Shown here: piece after piece, positions 6,243 to 32,977 of the stretch
Layout of the letters: every line of letters starts with the position of its first letter
How positions within the stretch are numbered: the stretch's first letter is position 1
Source: Thermoplasmata archaeon
GTDB taxonomy: Archaea; Thermoplasmatota; Thermoplasmata; Thermoplasmatales; Thermoplasmataceae
Length of the DNA stretch: 34,381 nucleotides
Direction: 5' to 3'
Assembly: GCA_021816745.1 (NCBI GenBank)
Contig: JAKAWY010000008.1
Span: 1 to 34,381, forward strand
Notes under the pieces: model-generated
Database searches by the model: none
What the model was told of the DNA's origin: nothing
Seen by the model: only the letters and a program-made list of their open reading frames with translations
Position numbers and translations under genes: made by a program

Positions 6243-6678
6243 TCCTGCAGCTCATGCATGTCCAGGATGAATTCCATGTCGTAGTAGAGCCTCACGCCTC
6301 CGAACTTTTTCACCAGGTATTCGGGTACAAAATATGGGAAATAGTTCATCGATGCCATCAATGGATCAGTTTCCTCTTCCTGCCCGATCATTTCCTGAAC
6401 CCCCTTTTCTCTGTGTTCTTCACGTGAAAGATCCTGTTATATTTCTCATCCATCGGGATGGATATCCTCAGCTGGATGGGATTGCTGGAAATCCTGAAAC
6501 AATCCTTTGGATGCCTGGATTCCCACCTTATGAGTTCATCGTTTGCCTGGACAAAATCGTCAAAGAACAGCCAGGAAACCTTTTCCGGAGAGACGATCTC
6601 ACCATTCATCCCATCCATGTACCTATCGAGCCTTGTCTGAGGGTCAGGGATCTGCCTTAGGTCGAAGGTTTCCATCAT
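6218..6678 (-). pseudogene. Unknown protein (about 150 residues) interrupted by a -1 frameshift
   Basis: The first frame starts at ATG 6678 or 6675 behind a strong Shine-Dalgarno (GGGAGGTT on the minus strand, 6681-6688) and reads METFDLRQIPDPQTRL... to HVKNTEKRG, then terminates at 6388. The continuing reading, one base back, is well-formed protein (VQEMIGQEEETDPLMA...YFVPEYLVKKFGGVRLYYDME...) to a stop at 6218-6220. The switch lies in the run AAAAGGGGG (minus strand; 6400-6408). One extra G would restore a single frame, so this is a recent indel, a sequencing slip, or programmed slippage. It is a soluble protein rich in aromatic and acidic residues; I do not recognise the family. Confidence 0.6.
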
Positions 6679-10362: not shown

Positions 10363-10379
10363 AAAAATAAGACGAAATA

Positions 10380-12123: not shown

Positions 12124-13893
12124 ATGCTAATTCCAAGGGGAGAGGAGTATATTGGGTTAGACTTTAAAACTATGAATCCAATATTCTTACTTGGTGCAGG
12201 AATTTCTTTTTTATCCGGAATACCTGGAAGCGATACTATCAAACAAATTATTGAAAAGAATCTCCCAATCGATTCGTCTGATCGCCAATTATTAAATGAT
12301 GTTCTTTTGAACACCCCACTAGAAATGTTATTTTCTTTGGCTAACGGTCTGTTGAAGTATAAACCTATAAAACTTCGATCTTTGATGATAGATTTTATGA
12401 AAGCATCTCCCAATATCAACCATTTTAACCTTGCGGGAATCGCACAAGGTAAGCCTGGCACTGTATTTCTCACCACTAATTATGATATTTGTTTAGAAAA
12501 TGCATTGGAAATTCTTGGCCTACAAAGGGAAATTGATTTTTCGGTAGAAATCTTGCCTAAAGAAGACACTTTGCCCGAACTAAGATTAAATGATAAAAAA
12601 ACAAGAATTATTAAGCTCCATGGTAGTGCTGACGAATGGAAATCAACACTCACCTCAATTGAAGACGTCACCTCAAATCTATCTAACTTCCAATATGCAA
12701 AGAAATTGATAGATATTTTTGCGTACAAAGATAATAGGCCTCTTTTGATTCTTGGTTACAGTTTTTCCGATAAATATGACATAAACTCTATTCTAAAGCT
12801 CTTAAGGGAAGGTAGACGACCCATTATATACATTAAACATGAAAATGGCAAAACACCATATGCAGTTCAACCATCGGAAAATTCTAGTCATGTTCCTCTT
12901 TTGCAACCAGAAGATTTTGTAATAATAGGTGACACAAGTATATTTATTCAAGAATTATTTTTTGAAAACAATATTATTTGCAGCTTTAATTTTGAAAGTG
13001 AAAGAAAACATGCTGTTAATGAATCAAATTATGGTTGGTTGCAGATGGATAAGGGCAATGGGTATGTCCTAGCTGGGAGATTATTTCGACATGCTGGGAA
13101 GAACGAGGAATCAAAGAAGTATTTTAATAGAGGGAGCTTAGCCGTAAATAATTTTCTCACTGAAGCAAATATTGAATGCATTTTAGAATCTGCTTCTTTC
13201 TACTCAAGTCTTGATGAGGCTTACAGCAGTTATAATTCCATACTTGAACTACTACCTAAACTAAATAGAAATAACGCAGTAAAGTTTAGAGCGTACATTG
13301 GATTGATGGATAATTCACTTATAACAGGTAAAATCTCTAAAGCATCTGAATACCTAGAACTTGCAAAAAGGGAGATTAAATATGTTATACCGAAAGATAA
13401 ACAATATTATCAAGCTAGATACTATCATTCAGCTGGCAATTTAAAGAGATTCCAAGACAATACAGATAAAGAACTCGAAAATTATTCTAAGGCAATGAAA
13501 TTAGCCTTTGCAATCGGCAATATAGAGTTGATGGGAATTTCATTATTCTCTATCTCTCAAACTTACTATTTGATTTATGAAAGTAGAGTCAACAAGGATC
13601 GATTTATGTATGACAATTCTAAGAATCTGTTTCTGGAATGTCTATCTGTAGGAATGAGATCTAGGTTTTTTTATTCTCTGCTTGGAAAGAACAATATCGT
13701 AGATTTATTAGATGAATTTTTAAGTGAATATTTTAATAATGTTATACTAAAGGGAAATTACAACAGCTTTGTTAAAAATTCATTTGATATAATGAATGAA
13801 AAATATTTAACAAATGATTTTAGTGATAAATTGAAAGAAGAACTCAAATCCATATTAGATGGGCTAATTAAAACCTATAATCCTGATTTTTGA
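12124..13893 (+). CDS. SIR2-like domain protein with TPR-like C-terminal half
   Basis: 589 residues. The N-terminal SIR2-like (NAD-binding, SIR2_2 type) domain spans about 17-240: GAGIS at 24-28, TTNYD at 117-121, KLHG at 164-167 with the candidate catalytic H166, and LGYSFSD at 210-216. The rest (about 290-589) is helical with tetratricopeptide-like repeats (e.g. AYLGLMDNSL-type helix pairs, YYQARYYHSAGNLKRF). In characterised defence proteins such SIR2 domains hydrolyse NAD+ when infection is sensed and kill or arrest the cell; here that is inferred. The start could also be ATG 12172, which places the Rossmann strand at the N-terminus. It is a stand-alone gene with its own AT-rich promoter at about 12100-12116. 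Confidence 0.82.
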   Translation: MLIPRGEEYIGLDFKTMNPIFLLGAGISFLSGIPGSDTIKQIIEKNLPIDSSDRQLLNDVLLNTPLEMLFSLANGLLKYKPIKLRSLMIDFMKASPNINHFNLAGIAQGKPGTVFLTTNYDICLENALEILGLQREIDFSVEILPKEDTLPELRLNDKKTRIIKLHGSADEWKSTLTSIEDVTSNLSNFQYAKKLIDIFAYKDNRPLLILGYSFSDKYDINSILKLLREGRRPIIYIKHENGKTPYAVQPSENSSHVPLLQPEDFVIIGDTSIFIQELFFENNIICSFNFESERKHAVNESNYGWLQMDKGNGYVLAGRLFRHAGKNEESKKYFNRGSLAVNNFLTEANIECILESASFYSSLDEAYSSYNSILELLPKLNRNNAVKFRAYIGLMDNSLITGKISKASEYLELAKREIKYVIPKDKQYYQARYYHSAGNLKRFQDNTDKELENYSKAMKLAFAIGNIELMGISLFSISQTYYLIYESRVNKDRFMYDNSKNLFLECLSVGMRSRFFYSLLGKNNIVDLLDEFLSEYFNNVILKGNYNSFVKNSFDIMNEKYLTNDFSDKLKEELKSILDGLIKTYNPDF

Positions 13894-14473
13894 AGGAGAA
13901 CCTAATTTAGACTTGTAATATATTCCTGCATAAAGTTAATTTTCATCTATATAAGATATGATTCTGATCAACTTTGTTCAGTGATAGCTAGATTTCATTG
14001 GAAATTCATTTATTTGACTCTTTACTTAAATTTTGAAGTGTTATTAACGGATTGAAACCATTAATGCTAATATTTTGGATATGATTAGACTAATAAAAAT
14101 TGTGAAACCTAGGTGGTAATATTCAAGCGTTTGACTTTTACACATAGAAAAGAGGTTGCAAGAGAAGCAATCCCTTCAGAACATTCCTCATGATTAGTCA
14201 AAGAAATTATAAATTTGGGTACACTCCCCAATCTTCAAATCTTTTGGAGAATAAATTACAAATTTTTAACTCAATACCGATCTATAAAAAATAAAAGTGT
14301 GTAAATCCAAAAGTCGAACTTATTATTTCTGAACTGAAATTGAAGTTTAGTATATCTTATCTTTGAAAACTCGGAGAAAAGCACTTATAATTTATTTGTA
14401 TATTAATATTTTATATGAATACCTTACCAATATTATGTATAGCTAATGCAAATTTATATGTAGGGTTAAAAAA
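13894..14473. other. Intergenic region, mostly empty
   Basis: About 580 nt of AT-rich sequence after the SIR2 gene with stops in all frames and no recognisable RNA or repeat. TATA-like runs near 14395-14415 and 14450-14460 probably serve the short frame at 14474. Confidence 0.45.
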
Positions 14474-14620
14474 ATGACTAAAGAAAGGGCTGCAGTGTTA
14501 ATAGATAATTATTATTTAAAAAAGGAATTTTTAAATGGAAAAATGAGTTTTCTAAGAATAGAGCCAAAAAATTCATATATAGATGATAGAATACTTGATA
14601 GGTTATCATGGAATACGTAA
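14474..14620 (+). pseudogene. Possible NYN/LabA-type nuclease fragment (48 codons)
   Basis: ATG 14474 to TAA 14618-14620. The start, MTKERAAVLIDNYYLKKEF, resembles the first strand of NYN (LabA/DUF88) RNase domains, which begin with a hydrophobic strand ending in IDxxN; the Asp and a downstream Asn/Tyr are present. The remaining catalytic acids of a domain of about 150 residues are absent, so this would be an N-terminal remnant. It lies 86 nt upstream of the HEPN-STAND gene. The match is short, so confidence is low. Confidence 0.35.
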
Positions 14621-14706
14621 AAATTTAGCATTATACCATTTCCAGGCTTGGAATGAAATGGTTTTTGTTTGAATCGCTAAATTTACGTAAATAACGAGAA
14701 CTTGGA

Positions 14707-17538
14707 ATGAATGGTGTAAATCATATGTCAATAAGTGAGATGAAAACCAACAGAAAGTATGGTTACGACATTTTAATCAATAATTTCGAACATTCGTTGA
14801 AGCAATTTCTTTCTCAAGAGGTGTTCTTAATATATTTTGGAAAATCATGGATTGAGCATATTCCGAGCGGTATTTTTCAAGAATCTGACCTTGAAAGAAT
14901 GGAAGAACACTCAAAAGATGCTCCTATAGAAGAGTATTTTGATCAACTCACTTTACTTCAACTCAAACAAATTATTTTGACCGGAGAATTTTTTAATTAT
15001 TCTAAACCATATATCGGCGAACTTGGCAAGGAAAAATTTGACGAACTTTTCAATTCTTTAAACAAACTGCGACGAAATATAGCACATGCTAAAATATCAT
15101 TTAGCTCAGAGGATTTAGAATCGTTAAAAGATCTGGTAATTTCCGTATGCAATGGTCCAAGATCAAACGATGTTGTTGAGTACATAAAACTTGAAAAATA
15201 CAAATTGGCAGCGGAGGTTCCTAAAGTATTTTACGAAGATTATGACATTCCAAATAATCTACCATACGAAGATTTTGATTTAGATGGAGGTTTTGTCGGA
15301 AGAGATAAAGAAATCAGGGAATTGAAGAAACTACTATACTCAAATCAAGATAGAATAATCACAATTATTGGAGCAGGGGGGGTTGGCAAATCTGCCACAG
15401 CCATTAAGTTATCACATGAAATGATTCTAGATCAGAACAACCCATTTGATGCGATAATGTGGTTTAGTGCCAAAGAGAATAAGCTTACAGATACAGGTAT
15501 AGTTCCTTTAGATTCTGGAATAAAAAGTGAAATGGATTTGCTCAAAGGAATCGCTGAAATCTTAGATTCCATTAAGGCTGAGGCTTTGAAAAGTGCAAAA
15601 GCCACTTTTGATATGTATCGGAATTTTCTTTATGATGCATTTTCCAATGGTAGAGTATTGCTTATCGTTGATAACCTTGAAACAATTCTGTATAGTGATG
15701 CTTTAATAGAATTCATTAAAGACATTCCCAGACCTAGCCAAGTTCTCACAACAAGTAGAAAGGGATTAGGAGAAATTGAAAGAAGATACCAACTGGGAAA
15801 TTTGAATGATAAGGATGCTCTAAGGCTATTCCGATTAGTATCAAGGGAAAGGAACCGAAAAGATCTGGTAGGTCTGAGTGATTCGGCAATAAATAACTTG
15901 TGTTTCAAAGTTAGAAACTACCCACTACTAATAAAGTGGTCAATAGGTCAAGTTTGCTTAGGAAAAGAAATAAACATTGCTTTCTCAGTGATATTAGAGG
16001 GTAACAGTGAAATCGCTCAATTTGCGTTCAATGATGTTTTCTCATTGCTATCTCCCAGTTCAAAGACTGTACTATTTAGTATAATAGTTTATGAAAATAA
16101 ACGTATTCGAAAACCAATTCTAGCCAATATCTCAAAATTAGGTGACGATGACTTAGATAATGCTATCAAAGAACTTCAACTAAGTTCATTTATAATTTCT
16201 GAAGTAATTGAAGGTTCCGATTCTACTGAAACAGTGTATTATATGCTGGACTTGACTATGGGATTTGTTGAAACAAAACTTCAGAATGAAGTGGAAACAT
16301 TACGTATATTGCAAACTAATAAATATCATTTAGAAGATCAGATACAAAATGAGGAGATTGCAAAATCAGCCTATGCTCAATCTTTGTTTTCATTAGGTGT
16401 GAAGACAGACAGTGATAAAATTGCTTTCACATATATTAAGTCCGCTAAGAATTACCAATTCAAGGGAGATCTTACAGAGGCTGAAAAATTATTCAAAGAA
16501 GCAATCAAATATTCTCCCAACTTTTCATATGCGTTGATTGAATATTCAAAGTTTGAGTTCGAACGAGGTTTTATTAGAAGGGCACTTGAATTAATAAAAA
16601 AAGCTGTTGACTCTGATGATTCAAATTTTCATTCATGGTTTACATATGGCAAAATGCTGCGTAAAAATAGGAAATATTCAGAGGCAGTTTCTGCATTAAA
16701 ACAGGCTAAAAAATTAAATCCAGAATATCTACCTATTTACAACGAACTTGGAAGGACTTATACATTCTTAGGAGAATACGATTATGCTGACGCGGAGTTT
16801 CATTCTGCATTAATAGATCAAAAATATCCAAATATACGACATAAAATTATTACTTTGCAATATTTAGCAAACAATTTTAAAAGAAAAGCTGAAGCGTGCA
16901 GGGAAAGAAAAGATCTTGAAGGGGAACTTAATAATTTTAAAAATTCTCTTTCATCCATTGATGCTGCACTCGAACTATCTCCTCGCGATATCAAACTCTT
17001 GAGTCTAAGGTCCAGCGCCTACGTAGAATTAGGTGTAGTTCTCTGCAAAACCGATAATTTAAAAGAAGGTATTTCCTATCTTTACAAAGTCGTAGAACCA
17101 ATTAGACTGGGTAATAGTTTGATTGATCCAATAAATCCTGCTTTTTATGAAGCTTGTTATTATTTGGTCGTTTTTGCAGGAAAGGGTAATCTTATTAGTC
17201 AAAACGAAATGAAGAAACTAGTTTCAAAGGGGAAGAGCAATTGTGTAGGGAACCCAAAATGGGAGAATAAATTCAAGAAACTTGGTGAGGAGAAAAACTC
17301 AGAGAATTTTGAAAATGTGGGAGCATCTACATTATACGGTTACGTAAAATTTTACAATTACAACAGGATTTTTGGTCTTATAGAATCTGGAGGTCAGGGT
17401 TATTTGTTCTTTCCGAATTCTTTCAAAGATCACATAAATAAAGAATCATTAATTGATTGCAAGGGTAGATATGTGTGCTTCATTCCCGGTGTAAGCGATG
17501 GTAAGAATATTGCCACGCTTGTTTCATTTAAAGATTAA
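14707..17538 (+). CDS. HEPN - STAND NTPase - TPR - cold-shock-domain protein
   Basis: 943 residues; start ATG 14707 (ATG 14725 also possible). Domains in order: a helical N-terminal domain (about 15-150) with LRRNIAHAKIS at 121-131, where R122-x4-H127 fits the HEPN RNase motif; then an NB-ARC/STAND NTPase (about 195-500) with GFVGRDKE, P-loop GAGGVGKS 222-229, Walker B LLIVDNLE 318-325 and TTSR 348-351; then TPR repeats (about 575-860); and finally residues 878-943 (GYVKFYNYNRIFGLIESGG...GKNIATLVSF), which follow the cold-shock-domain pattern with degenerate RNP1/RNP2. STAND proteins are NLR-like sensors that oligomerise on ligand binding. A reading consistent with the architecture is that TPR and CSD sense viral protein or RNA and HEPN cuts RNA. 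No partner gene is seen. Confidence 0.85.
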   Translation: MNGVNHMSISEMKTNRKYGYDILINNFEHSLKQFLSQEVFLIYFGKSWIEHIPSGIFQESDLERMEEHSKDAPIEEYFDQLTLLQLKQIILTGEFFNYSKPYIGELGKEKFDELFNSLNKLRRNIAHAKISFSSEDLESLKDLVISVCNGPRSNDVVEYIKLEKYKLAAEVPKVFYEDYDIPNNLPYEDFDLDGGFVGRDKEIRELKKLLYSNQDRIITIIGAGGVGKSATAIKLSHEMILDQNNPFDAIMWFSAKENKLTDTGIVPLDSGIKSEMDLLKGIAEILDSIKAEALKSAKATFDMYRNFLYDAFSNGRVLLIVDNLETILYSDALIEFIKDIPRPSQVLTTSRKGLGEIERRYQLGNLNDKDALRLFRLVSRERNRKDLVGLSDSAINNLCFKVRNYPLLIKWSIGQVCLGKEINIAFSVILEGNSEIAQFAFNDVFSLLSPSSKTVLFSIIVYENKRIRKPILANISKLGDDDLDNAIKELQLSSFIISEVIEGSDSTETVYYMLDLTMGFVETKLQNEVETLRILQTNKYHLEDQIQNEEIAKSAYAQSLFSLGVKTDSDKIAFTYIKSAKNYQFKGDLTEAEKLFKEAIKYSPNFSYALIEYSKFEFERGFIRRALELIKKAVDSDDSNFHSWFTYGKMLRKNRKYSEAVSALKQAKKLNPEYLPIYNELGRTYTFLGEYDYADAEFHSALIDQKYPNIRHKIITLQYLANNFKRKAEACRERKDLEGELNNFKNSLSSIDAALELSPRDIKLLSLRSSAYVELGVVLCKTDNLKEGISYLYKVVEPIRLGNSLIDPINPAFYEACYYLVVFAGKGNLISQNEMKKLVSKGKSNCVGNPKWENKFKKLGEEKNSENFENVGASTLYGYVKFYNYNRIFGLIESGGQGYLFFPNSFKDHINKESLIDCKGRYVCFIPGVSDGKNIATLVSFKD

Positions 17539-20687: not shown

Positions 20688-22808
20688 TTAACGGATTATA
20701 ATCCAAGAAGTCATTGTACCCGGTTTCTTCATTGATTCCCTCTTCTCCACGATCCATTTTTCGTTTTGGTTTCCTCCAGAAAGTGCAAACATAACGACAG
20801 GTACAAGTCGAAAAGCTTCATGGTTTCTTTCCTCCTCATCAGTTATACCTGTCATCACATTTTTAATTCTTTTTTGTAGCTCCATCCAGGGAATTCCCTT
20901 TTCTTTTATTTTCTTCATAAAATCTATATCTTGTTCTATGGTTCTTTTTGCCTGCCTAACATAAACATCTATAACATCAATTCCCTCATTTGATGAAGTA
21001 TCTGCTACCTCTGTTTCTTTTCCTTCCTGATCAGAATATGATTCTTTAGCTATCTTCTGTAATTCATCTCTAAATTTATTACTCATACGCTTCGCGTATA
21101 TGTTTTCTGATTTTTTGGTATATTCTGTGTCCAAAGGAGTATACATGTCCCCGAAGGAAAGCACTCTTATCGGTATTGGATAGGCATGCCCATTTGCACT
21201 GCTCCAGAATACTCCATTTCCCTGTATTGGTTCATTAAGTAAACTTGATAAAATATCGGAACTAAAATTGGAATTAGCCTTTTTAACATTGTTTAAATCG
21301 CCTTGTGATAATAAATGAAAAATAAACCAATTATCTCCCTGACTTAACAATTGCCACGAAATACTTCCCGGTTGTTGAGTTATGAGAACTGCTCCCAGAT
21401 CATACTTCCTTCCTTCTTTTACCCACGTTACATAAGGGCCTTCTCCTGAGGAAACCGAGGATTCGCTCAATACTGACTGTGCCTCTTCAACAACCATTAT
21501 TGTTGGAATAGTATCGGGATTTGACTTAGTAAACTCCTTTTGATTATGTTCGAATATTCTTTGCAGTATTAAGCCAGACAATATTAAAGAAGACGAACCT
21601 CGAATCTGTGACACATCAAATATGCATAGTTTTCCTTCCTTCAAGGAATGTAATAACATATCCACCATAAGACTGCTAGGATCATGAAGCATCTTGACAA
21701 TAGCTGTCATATTAGCTCTTGCAGCATATATTTCAGCACTTTGTTGTTCAGGATCAATGCCAAGCAGACTTCCAATTTTAACTTCATCAGCAAAATTACC
21801 AAGTTTATGGATTTCATCCACTAATTCTCTCCAATTCTGTTCATTTAATCCTTTAAGTTTTCTGACATTCTGTTGATCCTGCTTTTCTGGTGATAGAGCT
21901 ATGGATATCACATCTGAAGGTTTTAGTCTCCTAATATCCAGCCTAATAGTTCCAGCAATGAATGATCCATAGAAATCACTGGGGGGCTCTCTTTGAGTAA
22001 AAACCACGATTTTATCTTTCAGTTCTGGCACATCGCATAAACCAGGGTGACCTTTATCGTCTGGCCAGAAATATTCGCCATCAGGATCGAATAGAACAGT
22101 ACCGACAGGAACTCTTCTGTTTCCTCTCTTTTGAACGGTAGGGCTTTCCTTGTAAAGATTGCTGAACAGTAATTTTATGAGGTTTGATTTACCATATCCA
22201 GCCCTGGCGAAAACGAATGTTCTTCTAGAAATTAGGCTTGATATCTGAAATCTTGGAGTGACTTTTGGGCCGATAATTCTCATCCAGGGCTCCTGTTTCA
22301 ACCTTTCATCTCCTTTTGCGTAAATGAACTCTCCTAAAGCAAGCCATCCTATTTCTGCCCCTTCAGAGGTTTCATTAACAATTTCTTTTAAAATTTCCTC
22401 AGAGAGAAAAGCGACATTGCTTCCAACATGGGGCAATCTCCTGTGTGAAGGAGCATAAACAATGGAACCGTTTGATGATCTAAGTACTCCAAGGACTCTA
22501 ATGTTTACACGATACTTTAGGTACTGTTCCCGAAGATCTTCCGGTATTTTCCTATTATCTGCTGCTACTCTTAAACCATAATCTTCTCCAGCTCCGCTGG
22601 CAAGTTTACCCTCTGCAGAGAGTGATGTTATCCTTCCTAAAACCCCTTCATTTTCATCCTCAAGTTGAACAATGAGGAATTGGCCATGCATTGGAATGCT
22701 TTGAAAATCACTCTTGTATGGCAAAACCAGGTCCGCATGAAATTCTAAACCGCCCTCACTGAATCCCTTAAAGATTCCTATGCTATTTTTTTCATCAAAA
22801 AGTTTCAT
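20688..22808 (-). CDS. herA: HerA-family DNA-translocating ATPase
   Basis: 706 residues, ATG 22808. The N-terminal HAS-barrel-like region is at 1 to about 150. The RecA-like FtsK/HerA core has Walker A RAGYGKSN at 202-209 (K207), FDPDGEY near 238-244, and Walker B IMVVEEAQ with E441-E442, followed by ITQQPGSIS (sensor). HerA forms a hexameric ring that feeds DNA to NurA. Its start overlaps the nurA stop by 4 nt (ATGA), so the two are translationally coupled. In the housekeeping version HerA-NurA is linked to Mre11-Rad50; those genes are absent here, and the partner is a DNA methyltransferase in an accessory island, so I infer a defence role. The C-terminus (about 590-706) is charged and unassigned. 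Confidence 0.9.
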   Translation of the reverse strand: MKLFDEKNSIGIFKGFSEGGLEFHADLVLPYKSDFQSIPMHGQFLIVQLEDENEGVLGRITSLSAEGKLASGAGEDYGLRVAADNRKIPEDLREQYLKYRVNIRVLGVLRSSNGSIVYAPSHRRLPHVGSNVAFLSEEILKEIVNETSEGAEIGWLALGEFIYAKGDERLKQEPWMRIIGPKVTPRFQISSLISRRTFVFARAGYGKSNLIKLLFSNLYKESPTVQKRGNRRVPVGTVLFDPDGEYFWPDDKGHPGLCDVPELKDKIVVFTQREPPSDFYGSFIAGTIRLDIRRLKPSDVISIALSPEKQDQQNVRKLKGLNEQNWRELVDEIHKLGNFADEVKIGSLLGIDPEQQSAEIYAARANMTAIVKMLHDPSSLMVDMLLHSLKEGKLCIFDVSQIRGSSSLILSGLILQRIFEHNQKEFTKSNPDTIPTIMVVEEAQSVLSESSVSSGEGPYVTWVKEGRKYDLGAVLITQQPGSISWQLLSQGDNWFIFHLLSQGDLNNVKKANSNFSSDILSSLLNEPIQGNGVFWSSANGHAYPIPIRVLSFGDMYTPLDTEYTKKSENIYAKRMSNKFRDELQKIAKESYSDQEGKETEVADTSSNEGIDVIDVYVRQAKRTIEQDIDFMKKIKEKGIPWMELQKRIKNVMTGITDEEERNHEAFRLVPVVMFALSGGNQNEKWIVEKRESMKKPGTMTSWIIIR

Positions 22809-23959
22809 TGATATCGCCTTCCAGTTAAATCGGGTGTAAATAGAAAATTATCAAGTTTAGTAGTTTTTTCAGGTTCAACAAGATCTCTGACAGATTTAAG
22901 GACAACATCTTGAAGTATGTCCAAATCTAAATCGACTACCTGAGCAAATTTGTCTGCATTTTGAAGACATTTTGGATAGTACGGTATTGGAAAACCGTCT
23001 ATTGCATCTGAAAGTAAATATGCGAAAATTTGTTGGTTTTTCCCAGACTGTGAAGAAAGTATATCTACTGGCCATACTGGATCGCCAGTTTTTGGGCCAA
23101 ATCTTACAAAAAACATATCTCCTGCATTGAACTTTGGGCTCTCTCCTCCTTTACCGGAAGATTCTTGACCTCTTGCCCACTCCTGCCATTTATATGCCTT
23201 AGCCTCCATATCTCTAGGAATCCTAACATATTTGGCATCACCGGAAGGAATTACGTCTTCAATAGCCATAGCCATTCCATATCTTTCAATCACTTTACTA
23301 TGTTTAGCAAGGCCTACTAAGTATAAGTTTCTATGATCTTCTTTCTTAATTCGATCAATAGATTCTTCTATTTTATGAATCATTTTTGTGAACAGTTCAC
23401 CTCGAAAGATCTTGCTCCTTAGTAAACCATCTCTTACAAGAAGTGTATCTGTTGCAAAATCTCGATGGCAAATTCTATCATACAGCACAGCCCATTCACT
23501 TATATCTCTATACACTTGTACCCATGAGCTATTGACACTCTGTGGGTCATTCCGGATTTTTTCTCCACTTGGAATCATTGGGCTAAGTTCATTTAGGGTA
23601 CTAACTTCTAAATCACTCATAAGAGTACCAAGAGGGGTTGGTGATCCAGCATCATCAAACTGTTTCTTACTAACCTCATCAGTATCTGTCATTGGTGAAA
23701 CTGCGTCAAGAAACATCTGCTTTCCATAAGAATCTACAACTCTAACCAATTGCACATAAAAAGGGTCAAACACGAGTTTATTATTTCCACCATCACTTGC
23801 AACTAAAGATATTGATGTTGTAGTCCGAGGATATATTGTCTTAACTTCATCTCTTAGAGTACGTACCTCTGCTCTTAGTTCTTGCAATAATTTATTTTGA
23901 TCCTGAGTGCATTTCTCGATTGCGTTTCTAATCTGAGGTAAAGAATCTGTATCAAACAT
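22805..23959 (-). CDS. nurA: NurA-domain nuclease
   Basis: 384 residues, ATG 23959. NurA is an RNase-H-like nuclease that works with HerA. Visible motifs are D56 in SLVASDGG, D177 in TLLVRDGLL, K219 in LVGLAKHSK, and the C-terminal GFPIPYYPKCLQNADKFA, all typical of the NurA fold. A predicted coiled coil occupies about 12-42. It starts 2 nt after the methyltransferase stop and overlaps herA by 4 nt, making a three-gene operon. Catalytic residues appear intact. Confidence 0.88.
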   Translation of the reverse strand: MFDTDSLPQIRNAIEKCTQDQNKLLQELRAEVRTLRDEVKTIYPRTTTSISLVASDGGNNKLVFDPFYVQLVRVVDSYGKQMFLDAVSPMTDTDEVSKKQFDDAGSPTPLGTLMSDLEVSTLNELSPMIPSGEKIRNDPQSVNSSWVQVYRDISEWAVLYDRICHRDFATDTLLVRDGLLRSKIFRGELFTKMIHKIEESIDRIKKEDHRNLYLVGLAKHSKVIERYGMAMAIEDVIPSGDAKYVRIPRDMEAKAYKWQEWARGQESSGKGGESPKFNAGDMFFVRFGPKTGDPVWPVDILSSQSGKNQQIFAYLLSDAIDGFPIPYYPKCLQNADKFAQVVDLDLDILQDVVLKSVRDLVEPEKTTKLDNFLFTPDLTGRRYQ

Positions 23960-23961
23960 AA

Positions 23962-25152
23962 CTAACTCACTTTTCTTGCATATACGTCAATTTCATCCAT
24001 TGAATGTTTAACCGAAGAAAGGAATTGGTTTGATTGGCGTTGACCATCTTCAGACGATCCAGCGCTTTCAATCTTTTCAACTTGCCATTCAGATCCACTA
24101 TAGGAAAGGGATTTTTGAATAATAGATTCGAAATCGTATGGAGTTGATGGTAAAGCACCAAATCTGATCACGAGATGCGCATCATTATCGGAAATTAATG
24201 ATACATTTCTCCACACATTAGAAAGTTCTTTTTCAAATTTTTTTGGTGAACCCGATGCAAGATTATTTTTTATTGCATACTCTGGTTTTTCGTCTCCTCC
24301 AACAAACCACTCTCTAAGCCACTGATTTGTGCTATAATTGTTCATTCCAAGATAAGGAGGAGAAGTTACTATCCACCTGAATTTCTTGTTAAATTTTTTA
24401 GGGAAAATTTTTCTAGCGTCATGAAGATATGCTTGACTATTGACTTTTTTTGGCACATCTTCATAATACCTCCTTGCACGTTTATCAACTATATCCAAAA
24501 CATTAATTTTTTTTGGTGTGTAATTGTGTTTTATCCAGTATCTAACCGCTGAACCTGGTTTAGTTGTGTATGTTCTTGGCATTTGATTTGACAGATATGA
24601 TTGAATTTTTTTTCCAGTTGGTCCATGCAATGCTCCAAGCATTATACCCCTGAGACCAATTCTTGCATCAGTTTTACAATCATTTAACAAACTTTCCTTA
24701 ATTTTGCATATCTGGGCTAATGTATCATTGTCAAAAGCCAAGTCCCAAAATTCACCTTTAGGAATGTTGTCGGTAAAATTTTCATCATTTGATAATATTT
24801 TTTCGCACTCTCTTATTATTACTTCTGGAGTTATTTTTATAAGTTTTGCCTTAGTTATTGCTACAGCCACGGGGTCTTTGTCTATTCCTATGCTTTTTAA
24901 ACCCAGCAATCTTGACGCATAAATTGTTGTTCCTCTTCCGCAGAAAGGATCTAAAACCCAGTCATTAGGTGCTGCTATTTTGAGTTTATCTAAAGGAAAT
25001 TGGATAGGAAACATGGTGTAATACGGTGCTATTGCATTTAATGTAAACTGTTTCTTTGGGATTAAGGAAAGCACATCCAAATGATCGGCTTCAGTTGAGA
25101 AGTTTGATGTTTCTTTAGGATTTATTTTTCGAGCTATCTTTTCATTTAACAC
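23962..25152 (-). CDS. DNA methyltransferase (probable N4-cytosine type)
   Basis: 396 residues, probably from GTG 25152. The SAM-binding motif DPFCGRGTT is at 68-76 and acidic GIDKDP at 89-94; the catalytic motif TSPPY is at 263-267, with a long segment between them that may hold the target-recognition part. SPPY favours N4-cytosine over N6-adenine (NPPY/DPPY). It is the first gene of the operon with nurA and herA. Its likely job is to mark host DNA so that the NurA-HerA nuclease complex attacks only unmodified DNA. That function is inferred from operon structure. Confidence 0.88.
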   Translation of the reverse strand: MLNEKIARKINPKETSNFSTEADHLDVLSLIPKKQFTLNAIAPYYTMFPIQFPLDKLKIAAPNDWVLDPFCGRGTTIYASRLLGLKSIGIDKDPVAVAITKAKLIKITPEVIIRECEKILSNDENFTDNIPKGEFWDLAFDNDTLAQICKIKESLLNDCKTDARIGLRGIMLGALHGPTGKKIQSYLSNQMPRTYTTKPGSAVRYWIKHNYTPKKINVLDIVDKRARRYYEDVPKKVNSQAYLHDARKIFPKKFNKKFRWIVTSPPYLGMNNYSTNQWLREWFVGGDEKPEYAIKNNLASGSPKKFEKELSNVWRNVSLISDNDAHLVIRFGALPSTPYDFESIIQKSLSYSGSEWQVEKIESAGSSEDGQRQSNQFLSSVKHSMDEIDVYARKVS

Positions 25153-25615
25153 TCTTTTCCCCCAAAAAAATTAAATCAATATGTGTGAACATTATGAATT
25201 ATGTATAACTTATATTTTATATTAATTTTCCGCCTGTACACAATTTAAAGAGATAAAATAATGTACCAAAAATGTACTTTCTTTGTGATATTCATCTCAC
25301 GCATTTCTTGAAAGTAAATCATCAGTAGGATTCATCATGATTTAATTTAAAACCCCCTCTGGGGAAGATATTCTTAGGTTTTGAAAATTTGGATAATGAG
25401 GAAGATGAGAGTGATAACCTGAAAGAACTTGAATCAGATGGGAATCTGAATTATAAGTTTCAAATTCACTGAAAATTGTAACGGAGTGGTAAAAGAAATA
25501 CTCGGGATTGTATGATATTGACTATTTTCCGAAATGAGGCACTTCCCTTTGAAGACCTATGTCTTTCTAAAATAGATATGCAAGAATTTATCAATTAAAT
25601 TCTTATAATCTACTA
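25153..25615. other. Divergent promoter region between two methyltransferase units
   Basis: About 460 nt separating the minus-strand methyltransferase-nurA-herA operon from the plus-strand type IIG gene. It contains AT-rich promoter-like runs near 25195-25225 (minus) and 25583-25606 (plus). A frame ending at about 25471 (GFENLDNEEDESDNLKELESDG) has no start codon and looks like debris. Confidence 0.5.
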
Positions 25616-28450
25616 ATGGCAAAATTCCAGCCTTTAGGAAAATCTGCTGAGAACACAAAGAGCAGTTTTCTTACGGGAATATTATCAAATTTGGGTCTTG
25701 AAGCGTATTTTGAAAGAACTATCAATCTTTCTGGTGTCGAAAAGCCAGATATACAAATTGTGAAAAATGGATATTATTTTATCGAGGCTAAACAGCAACC
25801 AGCAACATTGCAGGATGCTACAGCAAAGGCTTTTAAATATAAGCAATCCTTAATTTCCAAGGGAATCACACCAAAAGTTGTTTTTGGAGTATTGTATTCA
25901 CCCGAATCGGATGGTCCTTGCGAACTAACTGCTATGTTTGACTATGATCCCTTTTTCATAAGGCGCAAGGTAAAAAATTTACAGGAATTAGCAGAATCGA
26001 TATATGAATTCGTTATTAACCCACCAAAAGTTTCAGAACCAGACGCTGAAACTACTATTAACACACTTCGGGACATAGTATCCAATATTACAAGTCAAAT
26101 GGGCAAGGTTCCAGTAAAGGATGTGGAAAAAGTATTTGGCGGAGAAAGTGTATTTGAAAATATTCTTGAGTATAAGCATGATAATCTTCCAGTAAACCAA
26201 ATGAGAAGAGCTGCCGCTTTTCTTTTGGTAAACCAATTACTATTCTACAGACTTCTTTCAAAGGAAAGTGAGGATTATCCAGATATTAACGAAGATCTGG
26301 TGAAGAGCCCTACTGATCTTTTAGTTTATTTTTCAAAGGTTCTCGAGAAAGATTATGCAGTAGTGTTTGGATTTGACGTTGTCTCAAAGATTCCACAGGA
26401 TGCTATGGATCATCTAAGATCTGCAATAGTGACTATCAAAGCATTGACACCTACAAAACTTCCACATGATATTGTTGGACGAATTTTTCATGACTTGATA
26501 CCAATTGAGTTGAGAAAAGTCGTCGCTGCTTTTTATACAAATAATGAAGCAGCGGAAATGTTGGCAGCTTTAGCTATAAAAGATAAGGATGACAAGGTCG
26601 CAGATTTTGCATGTGGAAGTGGTACCTTACTTGTTGCAGCTTACCACATGAAACAACGTTATTTAGCAATAGATGGAAATTTTAGTGAAGATGATCACTC
26701 ACGATTTCTTCAGTCGGATATAACGGGAATTGATATTATGCCATTTGCTGCACATCTGGCAGCTGTAAATCTTTCACTTCAGGCCCCATTATACGAAACT
26801 GAACGTGTACGAATTGCTATCTGGGATTCCACTGATCTTAAACCAAATAAATCTATTCCTGCACTTTCAGCTGAACTTACAGAGGCGTATAGAAATCCAA
26901 AGTTGGATATGTTTTTTGGACAAATGCCTAGACCACAAAAATATATGAAGAAAGGAGGTATTTCCTTGGACAAGGAAGGTAAAGCAGAGATGCCTTTATC
27001 ATCAGTGGACGTCACTATAATGAACCCTCCTTTTACTAGGCATGAAAGACTTCCTGATTCTTATAAGAAAAAAATGGGAACAAGGTTTAAAGAATATAAA
27101 AACTATTTTACCATTCAACTTGGTTTACATGGGTATTTTATCTTATTATCAGATAGATTTCTTAAGAAAGGGGGAAGAATGGCATTTGTTCTTCCAGCGA
27201 CAACTCTTCGCCTAAAGTCTTTTGAAGGTATCAAAAAATTGATTTCAGAGAGATACTGGTTGCAATATATCGTAATTAACGTAAGTCGCTCTGCCTTTTC
27301 CGAAAGCACACAGATAAGGGAAATATTATTAGTTGCTGAAAAGGGAAAAGCAGGAGATGGAACTATTATAGCTACAATAAAATCTATGCCCAATAATAGA
27401 GAAGAAGCTTTACAATTTTCAGAATTTATTAAAAATCAAGTGAATAATGAAAATCTTTCCACAATTAAGGTAAATCAAGAAAATGTACTTGAAAATATTA
27501 ACAGATATCTTGGAGATGATCAGCTAAAGGGCGAAGAAATTTTGTCCACTTTTCTTACTTCTACAAACAAACTCCGGAATCTAACCGAAGTTGTTGAAGA
27601 TAATAAGGGTAAGCATTTAAGAGGTATTCAGGTATGGAAAGGTGACAAGGTGTACGCTGCAAAGATGTTTATTCTTTTCTCTAAAGAAAGGGCAATTAAG
27701 GCCCAAGATGAATGGGTTCTTGAAAGCATTGCACAAGAACATATCAATGTAAAAAACAAAATTAACGGACTCCAAGTAGAAATTCCCAAGAAAAAAGTAG
27801 TTTTCTCTTTAAGAAGATTTTCAGGTCTCGGCAGAATGGATGTTTCCAATGAATTAGATTATCTAATAAAAAATGAATTTGATAAACTCAATTATTTCAT
27901 AACAGAAATTGGAAAATCCGATCTTGTGAAATGGGAAAAGAATCTAGAGAATAAACAAACACATCTTGTTATCATTGGAAGATTTGATATTTCAGCTACT
28001 GGCACAAAATCTCTCGCATATTATTCTGAATATGAATTTAGTCCATCCCAGATGTTTTGGCTTATAAAGGGGATGTCAGGCGAGGATTCTAAAATATTTG
28101 CATTATTCTGGAACAGTTCCGTTAACATTCTCCAGATCTTATCAAACAAAAAAGAAACTAGGGGTGCTTTTATCCAAATTCTTGCATATTCTTTCCAAGA
28201 TTTCTTTGTAATTGATCCTCAACTTCTTTCTTTCAAAAATAAGGCGAATTTGGTAAAGTGTTTTGAAGATATTTCACGAGAGGATTTACCATCAATCCTC
28301 TATAGATATGAGAATATGGATTCGAGGCAATTAAAAATTGATTATGCCATTTTAGAAGCACTTGGTGTAAGTTATAGTAATGATCAACTTAAAGAATTAT
28401 ATTCATTCATCGCTGGAGAGATTAAAAAGCTTAAAAGTGTAATGAAATGA
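25616..28450 (+). CDS. Type IIG-like restriction endonuclease-methyltransferase fusion
   Basis: 944 residues in one chain. The N-terminal PD-(D/E)xK nuclease has P44-D45 and E57-A-K59 (IQIVKNGYYFIEAK). A helical linker spans about 150-310. The N6-adenine methyltransferase core has DFACGSGT at 330-337 and NPPF at 470-473, with LKKGGRMAFVLPATTLR about 30 residues after. The C-terminal half (about 640-944) is the probable target-recognition region. This is the Eco57I/type IIG plan, where one protein both cuts and methylates. No separate specificity subunit follows. It is transcribed divergently from the methyltransferase-nurA-herA operon, so the two may be independent or one compound system. PglX/DrmMI-like methyltransferases lack the nuclease motif seen here. 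Confidence 0.88.
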   Translation: MAKFQPLGKSAENTKSSFLTGILSNLGLEAYFERTINLSGVEKPDIQIVKNGYYFIEAKQQPATLQDATAKAFKYKQSLISKGITPKVVFGVLYSPESDGPCELTAMFDYDPFFIRRKVKNLQELAESIYEFVINPPKVSEPDAETTINTLRDIVSNITSQMGKVPVKDVEKVFGGESVFENILEYKHDNLPVNQMRRAAAFLLVNQLLFYRLLSKESEDYPDINEDLVKSPTDLLVYFSKVLEKDYAVVFGFDVVSKIPQDAMDHLRSAIVTIKALTPTKLPHDIVGRIFHDLIPIELRKVVAAFYTNNEAAEMLAALAIKDKDDKVADFACGSGTLLVAAYHMKQRYLAIDGNFSEDDHSRFLQSDITGIDIMPFAAHLAAVNLSLQAPLYETERVRIAIWDSTDLKPNKSIPALSAELTEAYRNPKLDMFFGQMPRPQKYMKKGGISLDKEGKAEMPLSSVDVTIMNPPFTRHERLPDSYKKKMGTRFKEYKNYFTIQLGLHGYFILLSDRFLKKGGRMAFVLPATTLRLKSFEGIKKLISERYWLQYIVINVSRSAFSESTQIREILLVAEKGKAGDGTIIATIKSMPNNREEALQFSEFIKNQVNNENLSTIKVNQENVLENINRYLGDDQLKGEEILSTFLTSTNKLRNLTEVVEDNKGKHLRGIQVWKGDKVYAAKMFILFSKERAIKAQDEWVLESIAQEHINVKNKINGLQVEIPKKKVVFSLRRFSGLGRMDVSNELDYLIKNEFDKLNYFITEIGKSDLVKWEKNLENKQTHLVIIGRFDISATGTKSLAYYSEYEFSPSQMFWLIKGMSGEDSKIFALFWNSSVNILQILSNKKETRGAFIQILAYSFQDFFVIDPQLLSFKNKANLVKCFEDISREDLPSILYRYENMDSRQLKIDYAILEALGVSYSNDQLKELYSFIAGEIKKLKSVMK

Positions 28451-28849: not shown

Positions 28850-28871
28850 GAAATTTGGAAATGCAAATTTC
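28850..28871. promoter_or_regulatory. Perfect inverted repeat, candidate operator
   Basis: GAAATTTG and CAAATTTC separated by 6 nt, ending 7 nt before the ATG at 28878 and overlapping the predicted start site. The symmetry and position suggest a repressor site or a short 5' hairpin. Confidence 0.5.
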
Positions 28872-28877
28872 CACAAC

Positions 28878-30212
28878 ATGGAACTAATTAAACCAAAAAA
28901 GAAGTATAATGAGAATCAAATGAGAATTGCTCTCCTCTCATTGAATTGGTACAGAAGGAAGGATCCGAGGACACCTTTGGGTATAGCCTATATTTATTCA
29001 GTTCTTATGAACCTGAAATCAAGATATACAGATCTTGACGTTAATTTATTGCAGTTTGACACGAAAGGCAATTTAAGCGACGTTTTGCATGAAATAATGG
29101 TACTTGTTCCGGATATACTTGGCATCAGCGTTTATGCGTGGAATGCCTACCAGGTTAAAATGATAATAGATGCGCTTAGGAGTTTTGAATACAATGGTTC
29201 CATCGTGCTAGGTGGTTCAGAAATCACATATGGAGGTGATGAGTTAAATGATGAATTTTCTGGAGCAGATTACTTCGTTAAAGGTTTTGGGGAGCAAGCT
29301 TTCTCCGATCTGATAGAGGGAATGATTTCAGGAAATGACTTATCCATTAAAGGTGTATATAAAAATGGAGACAAAATAGGCAATTTATTGGCTGTTGCCC
29401 CTACTGGCATACCAAATTCACCTTTTAGTCACGATGAAATCATTCCGATGATTTCTGGAGACAAATTTATAAGATGGCAAACCCAAAGGGGTTGTGTCTT
29501 CAGATGTAGTTTCTGTGCATTTACTATTCCTTCTGGAAACGTTGAAGAAAGTGATATTGAAACTGTAAGATATGAACTTGAGAAGATTAAGGAAATTGGA
29601 ACATCAAGCGTAGCGGTTCTTGATCCAGTTTTCTTCCTAAACAAGAAAAGGGCAATAGAGATTCTAGACCTCATTTCCTATAAGTTACCTGGAATCAAAT
29701 TCAGCATACAGACAAGGTACGAACACCTGGACACTGAAATAATCGCTAAATTGTCGAGTATGAATGTAAAACTTGAATGTGGACTACAGACTTTAGACAA
29801 CAAGGTACAACTAAGGATAAAAAGAATAAATAACAGGGAAAAGGTAATTGATATGATGAAAGAACTTACTGACCAAAAAATAGAATATGAAACGCATCTG
29901 ATCTACGGACTACCTGAGCAAACAAATCAGTCATTTCTTTCAGACATTTACACTGTTGCAGAATCCGGAAACAGCAGATTGAGGGTCTTTCCTCTTTCTA
30001 AACTTAGAGGTACAGAACTAGCAAACACTACGAAGGATGGAGAAATTTATTTTTCTCCATTTTTCCCAAATGAGGTAATTCAAACTAGATGGATGACAGG
30101 AATTCAGATTCTCAATCTTAAGAAATTTCAGCGCAGATTGGAGGATGCTGGAGGGCAATTTGATTTAGGGTTGCTTGATTCTTTGTTACAAAAGGAGGAG
30201 GTTGTAAAATGA
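28878..30212 (+). CDS. Radical SAM enzyme with B12-binding-like N-terminal domain
   Basis: 444 residues. The N-terminal Rossmann-like domain (about 15-165) has the layout of cobalamin-binding domains of radical SAM methylases (PDILGISVYAW, VLGGSEITYGG, ADYFVKGFGEQAF), but the DxHxxG cobalamin ligand is not seen. The radical SAM barrel follows: C206-x3-C210-x2-C213 (GCVFRCSFC) for the 4Fe-4S cluster, then SIQTRYEHLDTEII and LECGLQTLD motifs typical of the class. The C-terminus (about 390-444) is short. It overlaps the NERD gene by 4 nt (ATGA), so the products are made together. The substrate is unknown. This class modifies RNA bases, peptides, lipids and small molecules; here it stands in a defence island next to a nuclease. 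Confidence 0.88.
   Translation: MELIKPKKKYNENQMRIALLSLNWYRRKDPRTPLGIAYIYSVLMNLKSRYTDLDVNLLQFDTKGNLSDVLHEIMVLVPDILGISVYAWNAYQVKMIIDALRSFEYNGSIVLGGSEITYGGDELNDEFSGADYFVKGFGEQAFSDLIEGMISGNDLSIKGVYKNGDKIGNLLAVAPTGIPNSPFSHDEIIPMISGDKFIRWQTQRGCVFRCSFCAFTIPSGNVEESDIETVRYELEKIKEIGTSSVAVLDPVFFLNKKRAIEILDLISYKLPGIKFSIQTRYEHLDTEIIAKLSSMNVKLECGLQTLDNKVQLRIKRINNREKVIDMMKELTDQKIEYETHLIYGLPEQTNQSFLSDIYTVAESGNSRLRVFPLSKLRGTELANTTKDGEIYFSPFFPNEVIQTRWMTGIQILNLKKFQRRLEDAGGQFDLGLLDSLLQKEEVVK
30192..30201 (+). promoter_or_regulatory. Shine-Dalgarno inside the radical SAM gene
   Basis: AAGGAGGAGG lies 7 nt before ATG 30209 and supports that start over the internal ATG at 30242. It implies reinitiation coupling of the two genes. 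Confidence 0.75.
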
Positions 30213-32977
30213 GCTTAAGAATATTCAAAGGTGGAGAATTGATGGAGACGGGTGAAAGAGAACAAGCGTACAAGATGATTGAGTATCTAACTCCGTTTTT
30301 TAATGAGAGAGGCAGTGACGTATTCATTGTTGTAAACCCTCTATTTAACGTAAATTCACCACAAATTGATTGCCTATTTTATAGACAAGGAAGAATCGTG
30401 ATTCTTGAGTTAAAAAACATACATGGGAGTTTCATCCCTGTAGCTGATGAGGAGAAACCGTGGATAGCAATATCAAATGAAGGAATCACAAAAGAAATTG
30501 AAAAGCAAAATAAGAACCCATTTGAACAGGTGAAGCATCAAAGGGGTTTCCTCATTAGATATTTCATTCATAATGTTCTAGATCATTCTGATATTTCTGG
30601 AAATGAAATGATAGCAAAGATTATTGGAGACAACATAAGTGGATGGATAGTAACAGCAGAAAATTCTAAACCGGAAGAATACGATAAGATAGGTAAATAC
30701 TGGAGCGATGTTGTACCTATAGGAAAGATGCTCAGCACAGCACTTTCTACCATCGGAACTGCCAAAAAGGATTCCATAGATGAGGAAAAATTTAAGAAGT
30801 TTTTGAGTAAAATTGGGGCTAAAGAGACTAGTCTTGAAAACTTATTTTTTAAGGGGGTGGTTCCAGAATACGAATCTGGAAAAGTTCCAACAGTGGAAAT
30901 TTTACTAAAATCCAATAATGAGGAAGAGAACAGGACTGCGATAAAGTATTGCAGAGAACTAAATCTTTTGCGCTATTTTGATGATCTCACAGCCTTATCC
31001 ATAATTGCACCCACAACGGTAAGATTTGATGCATTTTCATTACTTTTTGAATGGCTCAATAGATTTCAACAAAAATTTCCAATAAGTGATAAATATCTAG
31101 TCGTAAAACGTTCAATCATTGATTCTGATTTCAACATTCGGAAAATGGCTTATCAATTCCTTTTAAACAGTCCTTTTAAAATGGATAAAAACTTGCAAAA
31201 AATTGTTGAAGGCATTCTTGTAGAGGAAACTAACGGGGAACTGATAGTCCTGAATTTAAAAACATTTGAGTTCATGGAGAACATTCAAAATGCGGAACTT
31301 ACATTGAAGAATTTTTACAATCAGAAGATAGGATTAAGTTTCTTTTATTGGTTAAAGGAGTCAAAAAAACTGAATAAAACTTATTCAAAGCAATTGAAAT
31401 ATACAAGAGATAACAAACAAGAAGGAACGGAGGATAAAACAGAACTTCGCAATGAGATGGATAAAGCAAGGATTCAATCAAAATTATGGATTGATATTGC
31501 AAATGCTTGGATAGATGTCTCGTCAACATTAAAATCCAAGACTTTGGCTGCCCTTGTTTTAGAGCACTTAAAGAGAGTCGTTGAAGAATTCGAACCGCCC
31601 CAGAATTCTGATCTCACCCCTACTCCAACTATACGGGAGAGTATTAAGGCTTTGGCAAAAATTGGCAGCGAAGAGGCAAGAAATTATCTAAGGAAAACTC
31701 TTCTTAGTTCAACGAATGAATACATTCTCTATGATACAATAGAAGCTCTTGGAGAATTACAGGATAATGATTCATCCGATCAACTCATGAACTTATTGAA
31801 AAATGTAGACGAAAATAATTCAATTGATACTAATTACATCAAGATTCTAGCTTCAGATGCATTGTCCAGGATAGGCATCGTTGAATCCTTTGACCTAATA
31901 TGGGAACTTTTTCTATTGGATGTAAACAAGGAATCGGTTTCGGAAGAAGGGAAATCATATTTTAACAGCTTAAGGCGCTTAAATAGAGTCAAGCTTGAGA
32001 AAAAACTGTGGGAAACAATTGAGGAAAATGGCTATAACACGCAGACTTTTGAAACCTATGGAGAATCTATTAAACAGTGTGGAGGTAAATACACCATAGA
32101 TAAATGCAAACAGCTGATATTAGAAAGAAATCTCAAGATCGATAATTTTTACAAGAGTCCAGAAGGAATTCTTAGGTATGTCTTTTGGGCAAACCCTACA
32201 ATGGGGGATGCTGGAGTGAAATTGGGCCTTGAACTGCTTAAGACCGGCAGGAAAGAACTGGAAATGACTGGGCTTGATCTAGCTGAATCCTATATGTTAA
32301 ATAATGTAAAGGAGCTGGAAAAGTACGAGTACAGTGAAAATGAGGATACCAGGTACTTGGTTTCTATGATGTATTGTAAACTTAGGAATCAAGATAAAGT
32401 AGAATCAGCTATAATCTATGAAATTGAAAAAGATGCCTTCCCTTCAGCGTATTTGCTGGAAACCTTGATACCAGAAAAATGTTTCAAATCTTATTACATT
32501 GTTGGTGATGGAAACGTTCAGGAATGTGAGTTTGTCGTTGGCAATTCTGGTTTGTTCGTAACAACGTTTCCTATTCATGGGCACACATCGGCAACGGAAA
32601 AATTGCAATTTATTCCGTGGAACAATTTTTCTGCATATAGGAAATTTGGGATTCAAAATATCATAGTTGGGTTGCTAATCAAGACAAAAGAGGAAAAAAT
32701 TTCAAGTCTTATGCCAAGGGAAGCAGTTTCATGGAACTCTTTAGTGGGAAATAAGAAAGTGAATGAAGCAGGCATAAACTGTATAGTCAATGGCATAGAG
32801 AACAACGTTAGTGCCGGAATTGGACAGCAAGAAGTTGCTGCTACCTCTGACTCACTTTATGAAATCCTTAAATCAGCTTATATTCAAGAGGAAACACATT
32901 CATTTGGAGGAAACGTTCAAGAAAAAATCGAAATGTTCTCAAATAGGTTTAAAACTGAAATGATGAAATTAATTTGA
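30209..32977 (+). CDS. NERD-domain nuclease with HEAT-like repeats
   Basis: 922 residues. The N-terminal NERD (nuclease-related) domain is at about 14-140, with Q52-I-D54 (SPQIDCLFYR) and E67-L-K69 (ILELKN) giving the D..ExK active site of the PD-(D/E)xK fold. The central part is helical. Residues about 465-575 read as HEAT-like repeats (SIKALAKIGSEEARNYLRK, DTIEALGELQDNDSSDQLMNLL, ASDALSRIGIVESFDLIWEL). The C-terminal part from about 750 is a different, beta-containing segment of unknown type. The start overlaps the radical SAM stop, making a tight two-gene unit. NERD proteins are frequent in defence islands, but I do not know a described system pairing one of this size with a radical SAM enzyme. 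Confidence 0.85.
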   Translation: MSLRIFKGGELMETGEREQAYKMIEYLTPFFNERGSDVFIVVNPLFNVNSPQIDCLFYRQGRIVILELKNIHGSFIPVADEEKPWIAISNEGITKEIEKQNKNPFEQVKHQRGFLIRYFIHNVLDHSDISGNEMIAKIIGDNISGWIVTAENSKPEEYDKIGKYWSDVVPIGKMLSTALSTIGTAKKDSIDEEKFKKFLSKIGAKETSLENLFFKGVVPEYESGKVPTVEILLKSNNEEENRTAIKYCRELNLLRYFDDLTALSIIAPTTVRFDAFSLLFEWLNRFQQKFPISDKYLVVKRSIIDSDFNIRKMAYQFLLNSPFKMDKNLQKIVEGILVEETNGELIVLNLKTFEFMENIQNAELTLKNFYNQKIGLSFFYWLKESKKLNKTYSKQLKYTRDNKQEGTEDKTELRNEMDKARIQSKLWIDIANAWIDVSSTLKSKTLAALVLEHLKRVVEEFEPPQNSDLTPTPTIRESIKALAKIGSEEARNYLRKTLLSSTNEYILYDTIEALGELQDNDSSDQLMNLLKNVDENNSIDTNYIKILASDALSRIGIVESFDLIWELFLLDVNKESVSEEGKSYFNSLRRLNRVKLEKKLWETIEENGYNTQTFETYGESIKQCGGKYTIDKCKQLILERNLKIDNFYKSPEGILRYVFWANPTMGDAGVKLGLELLKTGRKELEMTGLDLAESYMLNNVKELEKYEYSENEDTRYLVSMMYCKLRNQDKVESAIIYEIEKDAFPSAYLLETLIPEKCFKSYYIVGDGNVQECEFVVGNSGLFVTTFPIHGHTSATEKLQFIPWNNFSAYRKFGIQNIIVGLLIKTKEEKISSLMPREAVSWNSLVGNKKVNEAGINCIVNGIENNVSAGIGQQEVAATSDSLYEILKSAYIQEETHSFGGNVQEKIEMFSNRFKTEMMKLI

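Follow-up and report, generated by a model that had tools for sequence, protein, structure and literature searches.

Overlapping genes for a radical SAM enzyme and a NERD-HEAT protein

In a 34,381-nt stretch of a Thermoplasmata archaeon's genome (contig JAKAWY010000008.1; hereafter the window), a gene for a B12-binding radical S-adenosylmethionine (SAM) enzyme overlaps a gene for a protein that joins a putative NERD nuclease domain to HEAT repeats. Elsewhere, relatives of the enzyme are linked to nuclease or toxin genes of other, unrelated types, and this hints at a little-known form of antivirus switch. Our best overall explanation, which we hold at about even chances, is that the pair is a nuclease-effector module directed against invaders and controlled by the radical SAM enzyme. 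We regard a role against invaders as such, whether in defense or in the manner of a toxin–antitoxin (TA) system, as reasonably probable. A preliminary description of this DNA had put the pair forward as a candidate new system. That claim needs qualifying: the radical SAM family is already catalogued as PDC-M51A, one component of a candidate phage-defense system in PADLOC, but its coupling to NERD-HEAT was not found described. Nor did the literature, in a search thin on subscription papers and bioRxiv preprints, describe the second radical SAM subfamily or the exchange of partners reported below. The M51A identity of the enzyme and the partner exchange are new with respect to the preliminary description.

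Gene 1 (28878–30212, plus strand) encodes the radical SAM protein of 444 residues, assigned from Pfam, PADLOC, an AlphaFold2 (AF2) model and fold comparison with the Protein Data Bank (PDB). Gene 2 (30209–32977, plus strand) encodes the NERD-HEAT protein of 922 residues, a putative nuclease effector, assigned from its open reading frame, Pfam and AF2; it is present in single copy in the window's genome. The genes overlap by the tetranucleotide ATGA (30209–30212), and a Shine–Dalgarno-like element for gene 2, GGAGGAGG, lies within the 3' end of gene 1 (30194–30201, plus strand). Reading frames, overlap and the position of this element all match what had been reported. GGAGG or GGGG is also found 5' of the gene 2 start at three related loci (L016, L017 and L018). 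The two genes very probably form one translationally coupled unit. The perfect inverted repeat previously claimed as a promoter element near the start (28850–28871, plus strand; 8-bp arms) is present, but its significance did not survive: repeats with 8-bp arms arise in 21% of shuffled intergenic sequences of the same length and composition, which is within chance expectation, and the element was dropped.

The pairing recurs in divergent archaeal loci

When 84,980 species genomes were scanned for the radical SAM enzyme, 19 loci emerged. Among 350 Thermoplasmata genomes sampled, the radical SAM gene occurs in four and NERD-HEAT in four, about 1% each. Yet NERD-HEAT lies directly 3' of the radical SAM gene in the window, L016, L017 and L018, with overlaps of 4, 7, 8 and 8 nt, respectively. 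Compared with the window's proteins, the radical SAM enzymes of the other three loci are 50–52% identical and the NERD-HEATs 29–32%. Given the rarity of each gene, overlap in four divergent loci means that the pairing exceeds chance. The four enzymes cluster in the tree (93/94 support) inside the archaeal branch. For L017 versus L018, dN/dS was 0.18 and 0.25 for the two genes, indicating purifying selection on both.

A fifth pair comes from a genome of the same order as the window's (G491, locus L074). There the NERD-HEAT gene again overlaps a B12-binding radical SAM gene by ATGA, and the enzyme falls outside M51A, with no PADLOC match, a CX4CX2C-like motif and 24% identity to the window's enzyme over 248 residues. 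A B12-binding radical SAM gene is thus immediately 5' of five of the six full-length NERD-HEAT genes that were identified in Thermoplasmata, with overlaps of 4–8 nt, the exception being that of genome G104; homologs co-occur rather than being found together only rarely. Across pairs, NERD-HEAT identity is mostly 24–33%. The expectation of adjacent genes in both archaea and bacteria was borne out in part. It holds within Thermoplasmata, where alone the NERD-HEAT pairing was found, but not in bacteria, where the radical SAM relatives are solitary or have other partners. The hosts of the NERD-HEAT pairs are acid-loving archaea.

At L018 (genome G239), codon 367 of the radical SAM gene is followed by an in-frame TAG, past which the frame is still conserved; NERD-HEAT is intact (radical SAM gene at L018 10001–11347; the same gene is at L010 11361–12705). 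With coverage of the G239 contig at only about 3-fold, either a recent loss or a sequencing error could account for the TAG. The metagenome-assembled genome (MAG) that holds L017, LSA5.bin89, has a second, broken M51A-type radical SAM gene (L023 3060–3799). No close relatives of the pair were found in phages, plasmids or viral contigs. Plasmid matches to the radical SAM enzyme were rejected as generic DUF4080-type or other B12-binding enzymes with ordinary neighbors, and a NERD match on a Leptolyngbya plasmid has no annotated radical SAM neighbor. A search for empty sites via the flanking CorA gene gave none to compare, as none of the eight other genomes examined has CorA.

Gene 1 encodes a B12-binding radical SAM enzyme of the M51A family

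Pfam matches in the gene 1 product are Radical_SAM (2.4e-21) and B12-binding (1.5e-9), the latter placing a cobalamin-binding domain at residues 32–145 (28971–29312, plus strand). The CxxxCxxC motif for the [4Fe-4S] cluster and SAM spans C206 to C213 (29493–29516, plus strand). Its cysteines, C206, C210 and C213, are those named in the preliminary description and are invariant in 18 aligned relatives. The protein therefore combines a B12-binding Rossmann domain with a CxxxCxxC radical SAM core, as class 1 cobalamin-dependent radical SAM enzymes do. Its AF2 model has a pLDDT (predicted local distance difference test) of 87, and the closest PDB folds are CysS and TokK, with template-modeling scores of 0.73–0.75; the sequence-profile match to these enzymes is 1e-29. 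In a profile alignment with TokK (7kdx), Trp88 of the window's enzyme (29139–29141, plus strand) falls exactly on TokK Trp76, and it is invariant in the 18 aligned rows. Trp76 sits under the cobalt in TokK, and the equivalent residue probably does so in CysS (PMC13331322). This fold and the placement of Trp88 make cobalamin use and methyl transfer likely. By homology in sequence and model, the enzyme is likely a cobalamin-dependent radical methylase of the CysS/TokK type.

The PADLOC model PDC-M51A matches the enzyme with an E value of 1.4e-75 and 252.7 bits over about 370 of 420 model positions. For comparison, generic B12-binding radical SAM enzymes score 100–137 bits and Myxococcota members about 500 bits. 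The sole match to PDC-M51B in the window's genome is a thymidylate kinase (Tmk) on another contig, with none beside the pair, and tblastn with that Tmk found no thymidylate-kinase-like gene beside any fetched radical SAM locus. Since the M51B component is not adjacent, the window holds an M51A-family enzyme and no PDC-M51 system. Two viperin profiles gave E values of 0.007 and 0.02 (12–14 bits), which is noise level; this, the B12-binding domain and the CysS/TokK fold uphold the view that the enzyme is unlike viperins. Nor does it belong to a named biosynthetic family with metabolic neighbors: against the NCBIfam biosynthetic radical SAM families (KedN5, PhpK and others), all its scores fell far short of the family cut-offs, the best being 93 bits versus a cut-off of 700.

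Gene 2 encodes a predicted nuclease on a HEAT scaffold

The NERD-HEAT protein matches Pfam NERD (PF08378) at 4.9e-6 (27.5 bits versus a gathering threshold of 22.1) and HEAT_2 at 2.4e-7. The NERD domain, of the PD-(D/E)XK nuclease type (30317–30565, plus strand), contains D54 and E67-x-K69. These residues, noted earlier as candidate catalytic positions, are invariant among six NERD-HEAT homologs, and both the domain match and the residues point to nuclease activity. In PglW of BREX type 2 and in DndF, the NERD domain is regarded as an effector of the restriction-endonuclease type (PMC10853773, PMC12839542). Residues ∼226–755 (30884–32473, plus strand) form a HEAT-type alpha-solenoid, seen as helical repeats in the AF2 model (pLDDT about 80–90) and through HEAT_2 and Foldseek, whose matches are HEAT/ARM scaffold proteins; the HEAT-like repeats described before are thus confirmed. 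A mixed alpha/beta domain follows at residues ∼758–922 (32480–32974, plus strand), delimited from AF2 secondary structure of low to medium confidence.

Relatives of the enzyme adjoin other nuclease or toxin genes

Members of the radical SAM family overlap genes other than NERD-HEAT. At L021, an M51A enzyme gene overlaps a NYN RNase gene (6.8e-18), with a UvrD-like helicase and a Dam-like DNA methylase nearby. At the archaeal locus L019 (606–7925), a 1839-aa NACHT/AAA STAND gene is followed by a 147-aa NYN/PIN-like gene, assigned by motif reading without a Pfam match, which the radical SAM gene overlaps. L067 and L068 come from two genomes in the same phylum as the Myxococcaceae locus, and there the radical SAM gene overlaps genes with sub-threshold DUF4258 matches (0.0019 and 0.00012). 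DUF4258 is listed among RelE/ParE-superfamily toxins (PMC11980606). At L069, a short radical SAM gene lies 3' of the Type I restriction genes hsdM and hsdS; Type I restriction genes also adjoin L016 and L018. The archaeal loci are mostly beside restriction-modification or STAND genes, and the association with defense is seen in several lineages.

In the phylum of the Myxococcaceae locus, M51A-family enzymes occur in 13 of 195 genomes. The locus L022, from a Myxococcaceae MAG (3183–6379), has an EVE/NOV_C gene, an HNH nuclease gene and the radical SAM gene in a row; the first two are missing from sister loci that are 77–86% identical and were treated as incidental rather than as partners. No hidden small peptide gene is conserved near the Myxococcota enzymes. 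Generic B12-binding radical SAM relatives have ordinary neighbor genes, and a small control, 10 neighbors of outgroup enzymes, held no nuclease family.

How the enzyme might control the nuclease

In the explanation that we prefer, NERD-HEAT would be the effector, its HEAT solenoid recognizing a target or partner. The radical SAM enzyme would control this effector, and the likeliest means would be a modification, either of NERD-HEAT itself or of something that NERD-HEAT reads, so that infection or loss of the modification would set the nuclease free. We infer both the control and its direction; conserved linkage, an effector-type nuclease and the swapping of partners are all compatible with control of a nuclease by the enzyme. 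We propose only tentatively that the enzyme exerts this control by modifying the nuclease or its complex, and not bulk DNA or a free small molecule. The NYN and DUF4258 partners are small, single-domain proteins, which favors direct control or modification of a protein over a free messenger, and the mixture of DNase-type with RNase/toxin-type partners is hard to reconcile with a single DNA mark. Broader, and distinctly speculative, is the idea that enzymes of this B12-binding family control a set of interchangeable nuclease toxins (NERD-HEAT, NYN, DUF4258/RelE-like) through their catalysis. Such pairs would make up a conflict-system class whose nuclease is gated by radical methylation and hence by SAM and B12 status, and the pairing with NERD-HEAT would have arisen at least twice, in two radical SAM subfamilies.

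Several observations weigh against a radical SAM-controlled nuclease module. Most Myxococcaceae enzymes (L057–L064, L066) have no conserved partner, so the enzyme is not obligatorily tied to a nuclease, and these solitary copies advise caution in calling it an antitoxin. The NERD-HEAT of G104 has no radical SAM gene nearby. In genome G010, a distant NERD-HEAT relative follows a gene for thymidylate kinase, and no radical SAM gene was seen. The single-domain NYN and DUF4258 partners share no ligand-binding domain with NERD-HEAT. AF2 gave a poor model of the NERD domain, so the conserved residues and the Pfam match are what support the nuclease assignment.

The sharing of an operon by a modifying enzyme and a nuclease, next to Type I restriction loci, would also fit a scheme like restriction-modification, with the radical SAM enzyme marking DNA or RNA and NERD-HEAT sparing or attacking the marked nucleic acid. 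EVE is a modified-base reader, and at L022 the radical SAM gene follows EVE/NOV_C and HNH genes, although the sister loci do without them. On such a scheme, one mark would have to serve the RNase-type NYN and DUF4258 partners and the DNase-type NERD alike. Solitary radical SAM genes are common, the G104 nuclease exists without the enzyme, and at G239 NERD-HEAT is intact beside the TAG-bearing enzyme gene (on the contig of about 3-fold coverage). We consider this scheme improbable.

We assign a similarly low probability to the production by the enzyme of a small molecule, such as a signal or modified nucleotide, that would be directly antiviral or would switch on NERD-HEAT. PADLOC couples PDC-M51A with PDC-M51B, whose model matches thymidylate kinase, which is reminiscent of kinase-linked viperins, and solitary enzymes could act alone. 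OxsB acts on a deoxyadenosine nucleotide. This related class 1 cobalamin-dependent enzyme takes part in oxetanocin A biosynthesis (PMC13331322), yet the nearest characterized relatives of the window's enzyme are CysS and TokK, not OxsB. Moreover, no fetched radical SAM locus adjoins a thymidylate-kinase-like gene, the NYN and DUF4258 partners leave no space for a ligand sensor, and translational coupling favors a protein complex.

A biosynthetic or housekeeping enzyme in an incidental nuclease neighborhood, as the ordinary neighbors of generic relatives and the lack of a consistent partner for most Myxococcaceae copies might suggest, is very unlikely in view of the overlapping order kept in five loci and two radical SAM subfamilies at mostly 24–33% NERD-HEAT identity, and of the patchy occurrence of the family (4/350 Thermoplasmata genomes and 13/195 of the Myxococcaceae locus's phylum).

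Comparison with known systems

The radical SAM-controlled nuclease module that we favor resembles several known systems in part. The window's enzyme matches M51A of the PADLOC candidate PDC-M51 (M51A plus M51B), but its partner is NERD-HEAT, and there is no adjacent thymidylate-kinase-like M51B. We found no published mechanism for PDC-M51, within the limits of the search given above. With CysS and TokK (KedN5-type), the enzyme shares the fold, the sequence profile, the CxxxCxxC motif and the Trp under the cobalt, but it is about 200 residues shorter, without most of the C-terminal region, and lies outside an antibiotic pathway. Prokaryotic viperins (pVip) belong to the same superfamily, share the radical SAM core and are likewise associated with defense; the window's enzyme differs from them in its B12-binding domain and nuclease partner, and matches their profiles only at E 0.007–0.02.

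Type VII (enzymatic) TA systems are comparable only in their possible way of working, with a gene for a nuclease-type toxin overlapping one for a modifying enzyme, as the DUF4258 and NYN genes overlap radical SAM genes; but solitary radical SAM genes exist, and radical SAM enzymes are not known among antitoxins. PglW of BREX type 2 and some DndF proteins have an N-terminal NERD domain of the PD-(D/E)XK type that has been proposed to act in suicide or as a backup effector (PMC10853773, PMC12839542), whereas in the present protein NERD comes together with a HEAT solenoid. The two-gene unit has no kinase, helicase or other BREX or Dnd component; the PglX/MAD2-like matches belong to a separate upstream gene. 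A standalone radical SAM gene is also found in the predicted vWA-MoxR 'FtsH ternary' conflict systems, as an effector proposed to modify a peptide (PMC7159879). The present loci differ: in those of Myxococcota, neither vWA, MoxR or FtsH genes nor a conserved gene for a small peptide turned up.

What is known of radical SAM chemistry in prokaryotic defense comes essentially from viperins, and a B12-binding radical SAM enzyme tied to nucleases would add a second chemistry. PDC-M51A, an orphan candidate in PADLOC, would also become easier to account for. The swaps between DNase-type and RNase/toxin-type partners make the target of the enzyme's modification directly testable by comparison of pairs.

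Other genes of the window and of the G104 locus

The NERD-HEAT gene of G104 without a radical SAM gene (L011, L075) is located among HNH nuclease, HerA-like and SMC-like genes, apparently a defense island; the HerA-like and SMC-like calls come from reading the sequence only. In the window, the region 5' of the pair contains a phage integrase gene, SIR2 and STAND-TPR genes, an IS21 element, a HerA-type ATPase and two DNA methylases, in line with the restriction and abortive-type surroundings previously described. A minus-strand run of genes for the HerA-type ATPase, a 384-aa protein and a DNA methylase is followed by a plus-strand gene for a 944-aa N6-adenine methylase with PglX/MAD2-like matches (25616–28450); together (20688–28450) these genes may make up a restriction or BREX-like system not described before. 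The integrase gene (5388–5942) is on the left side of the island, near a GHKL-ATPase gene (HATPase_c_3) that adjoins an opposite-strand gene for a PAPS-reductase/PP-loop protein (8494–11393). Between these and the methylase region, a SIR2-domain protein and then a STAND (NB-ARC)-TPR protein are encoded (12124–17538), both typical abortive-infection genes.

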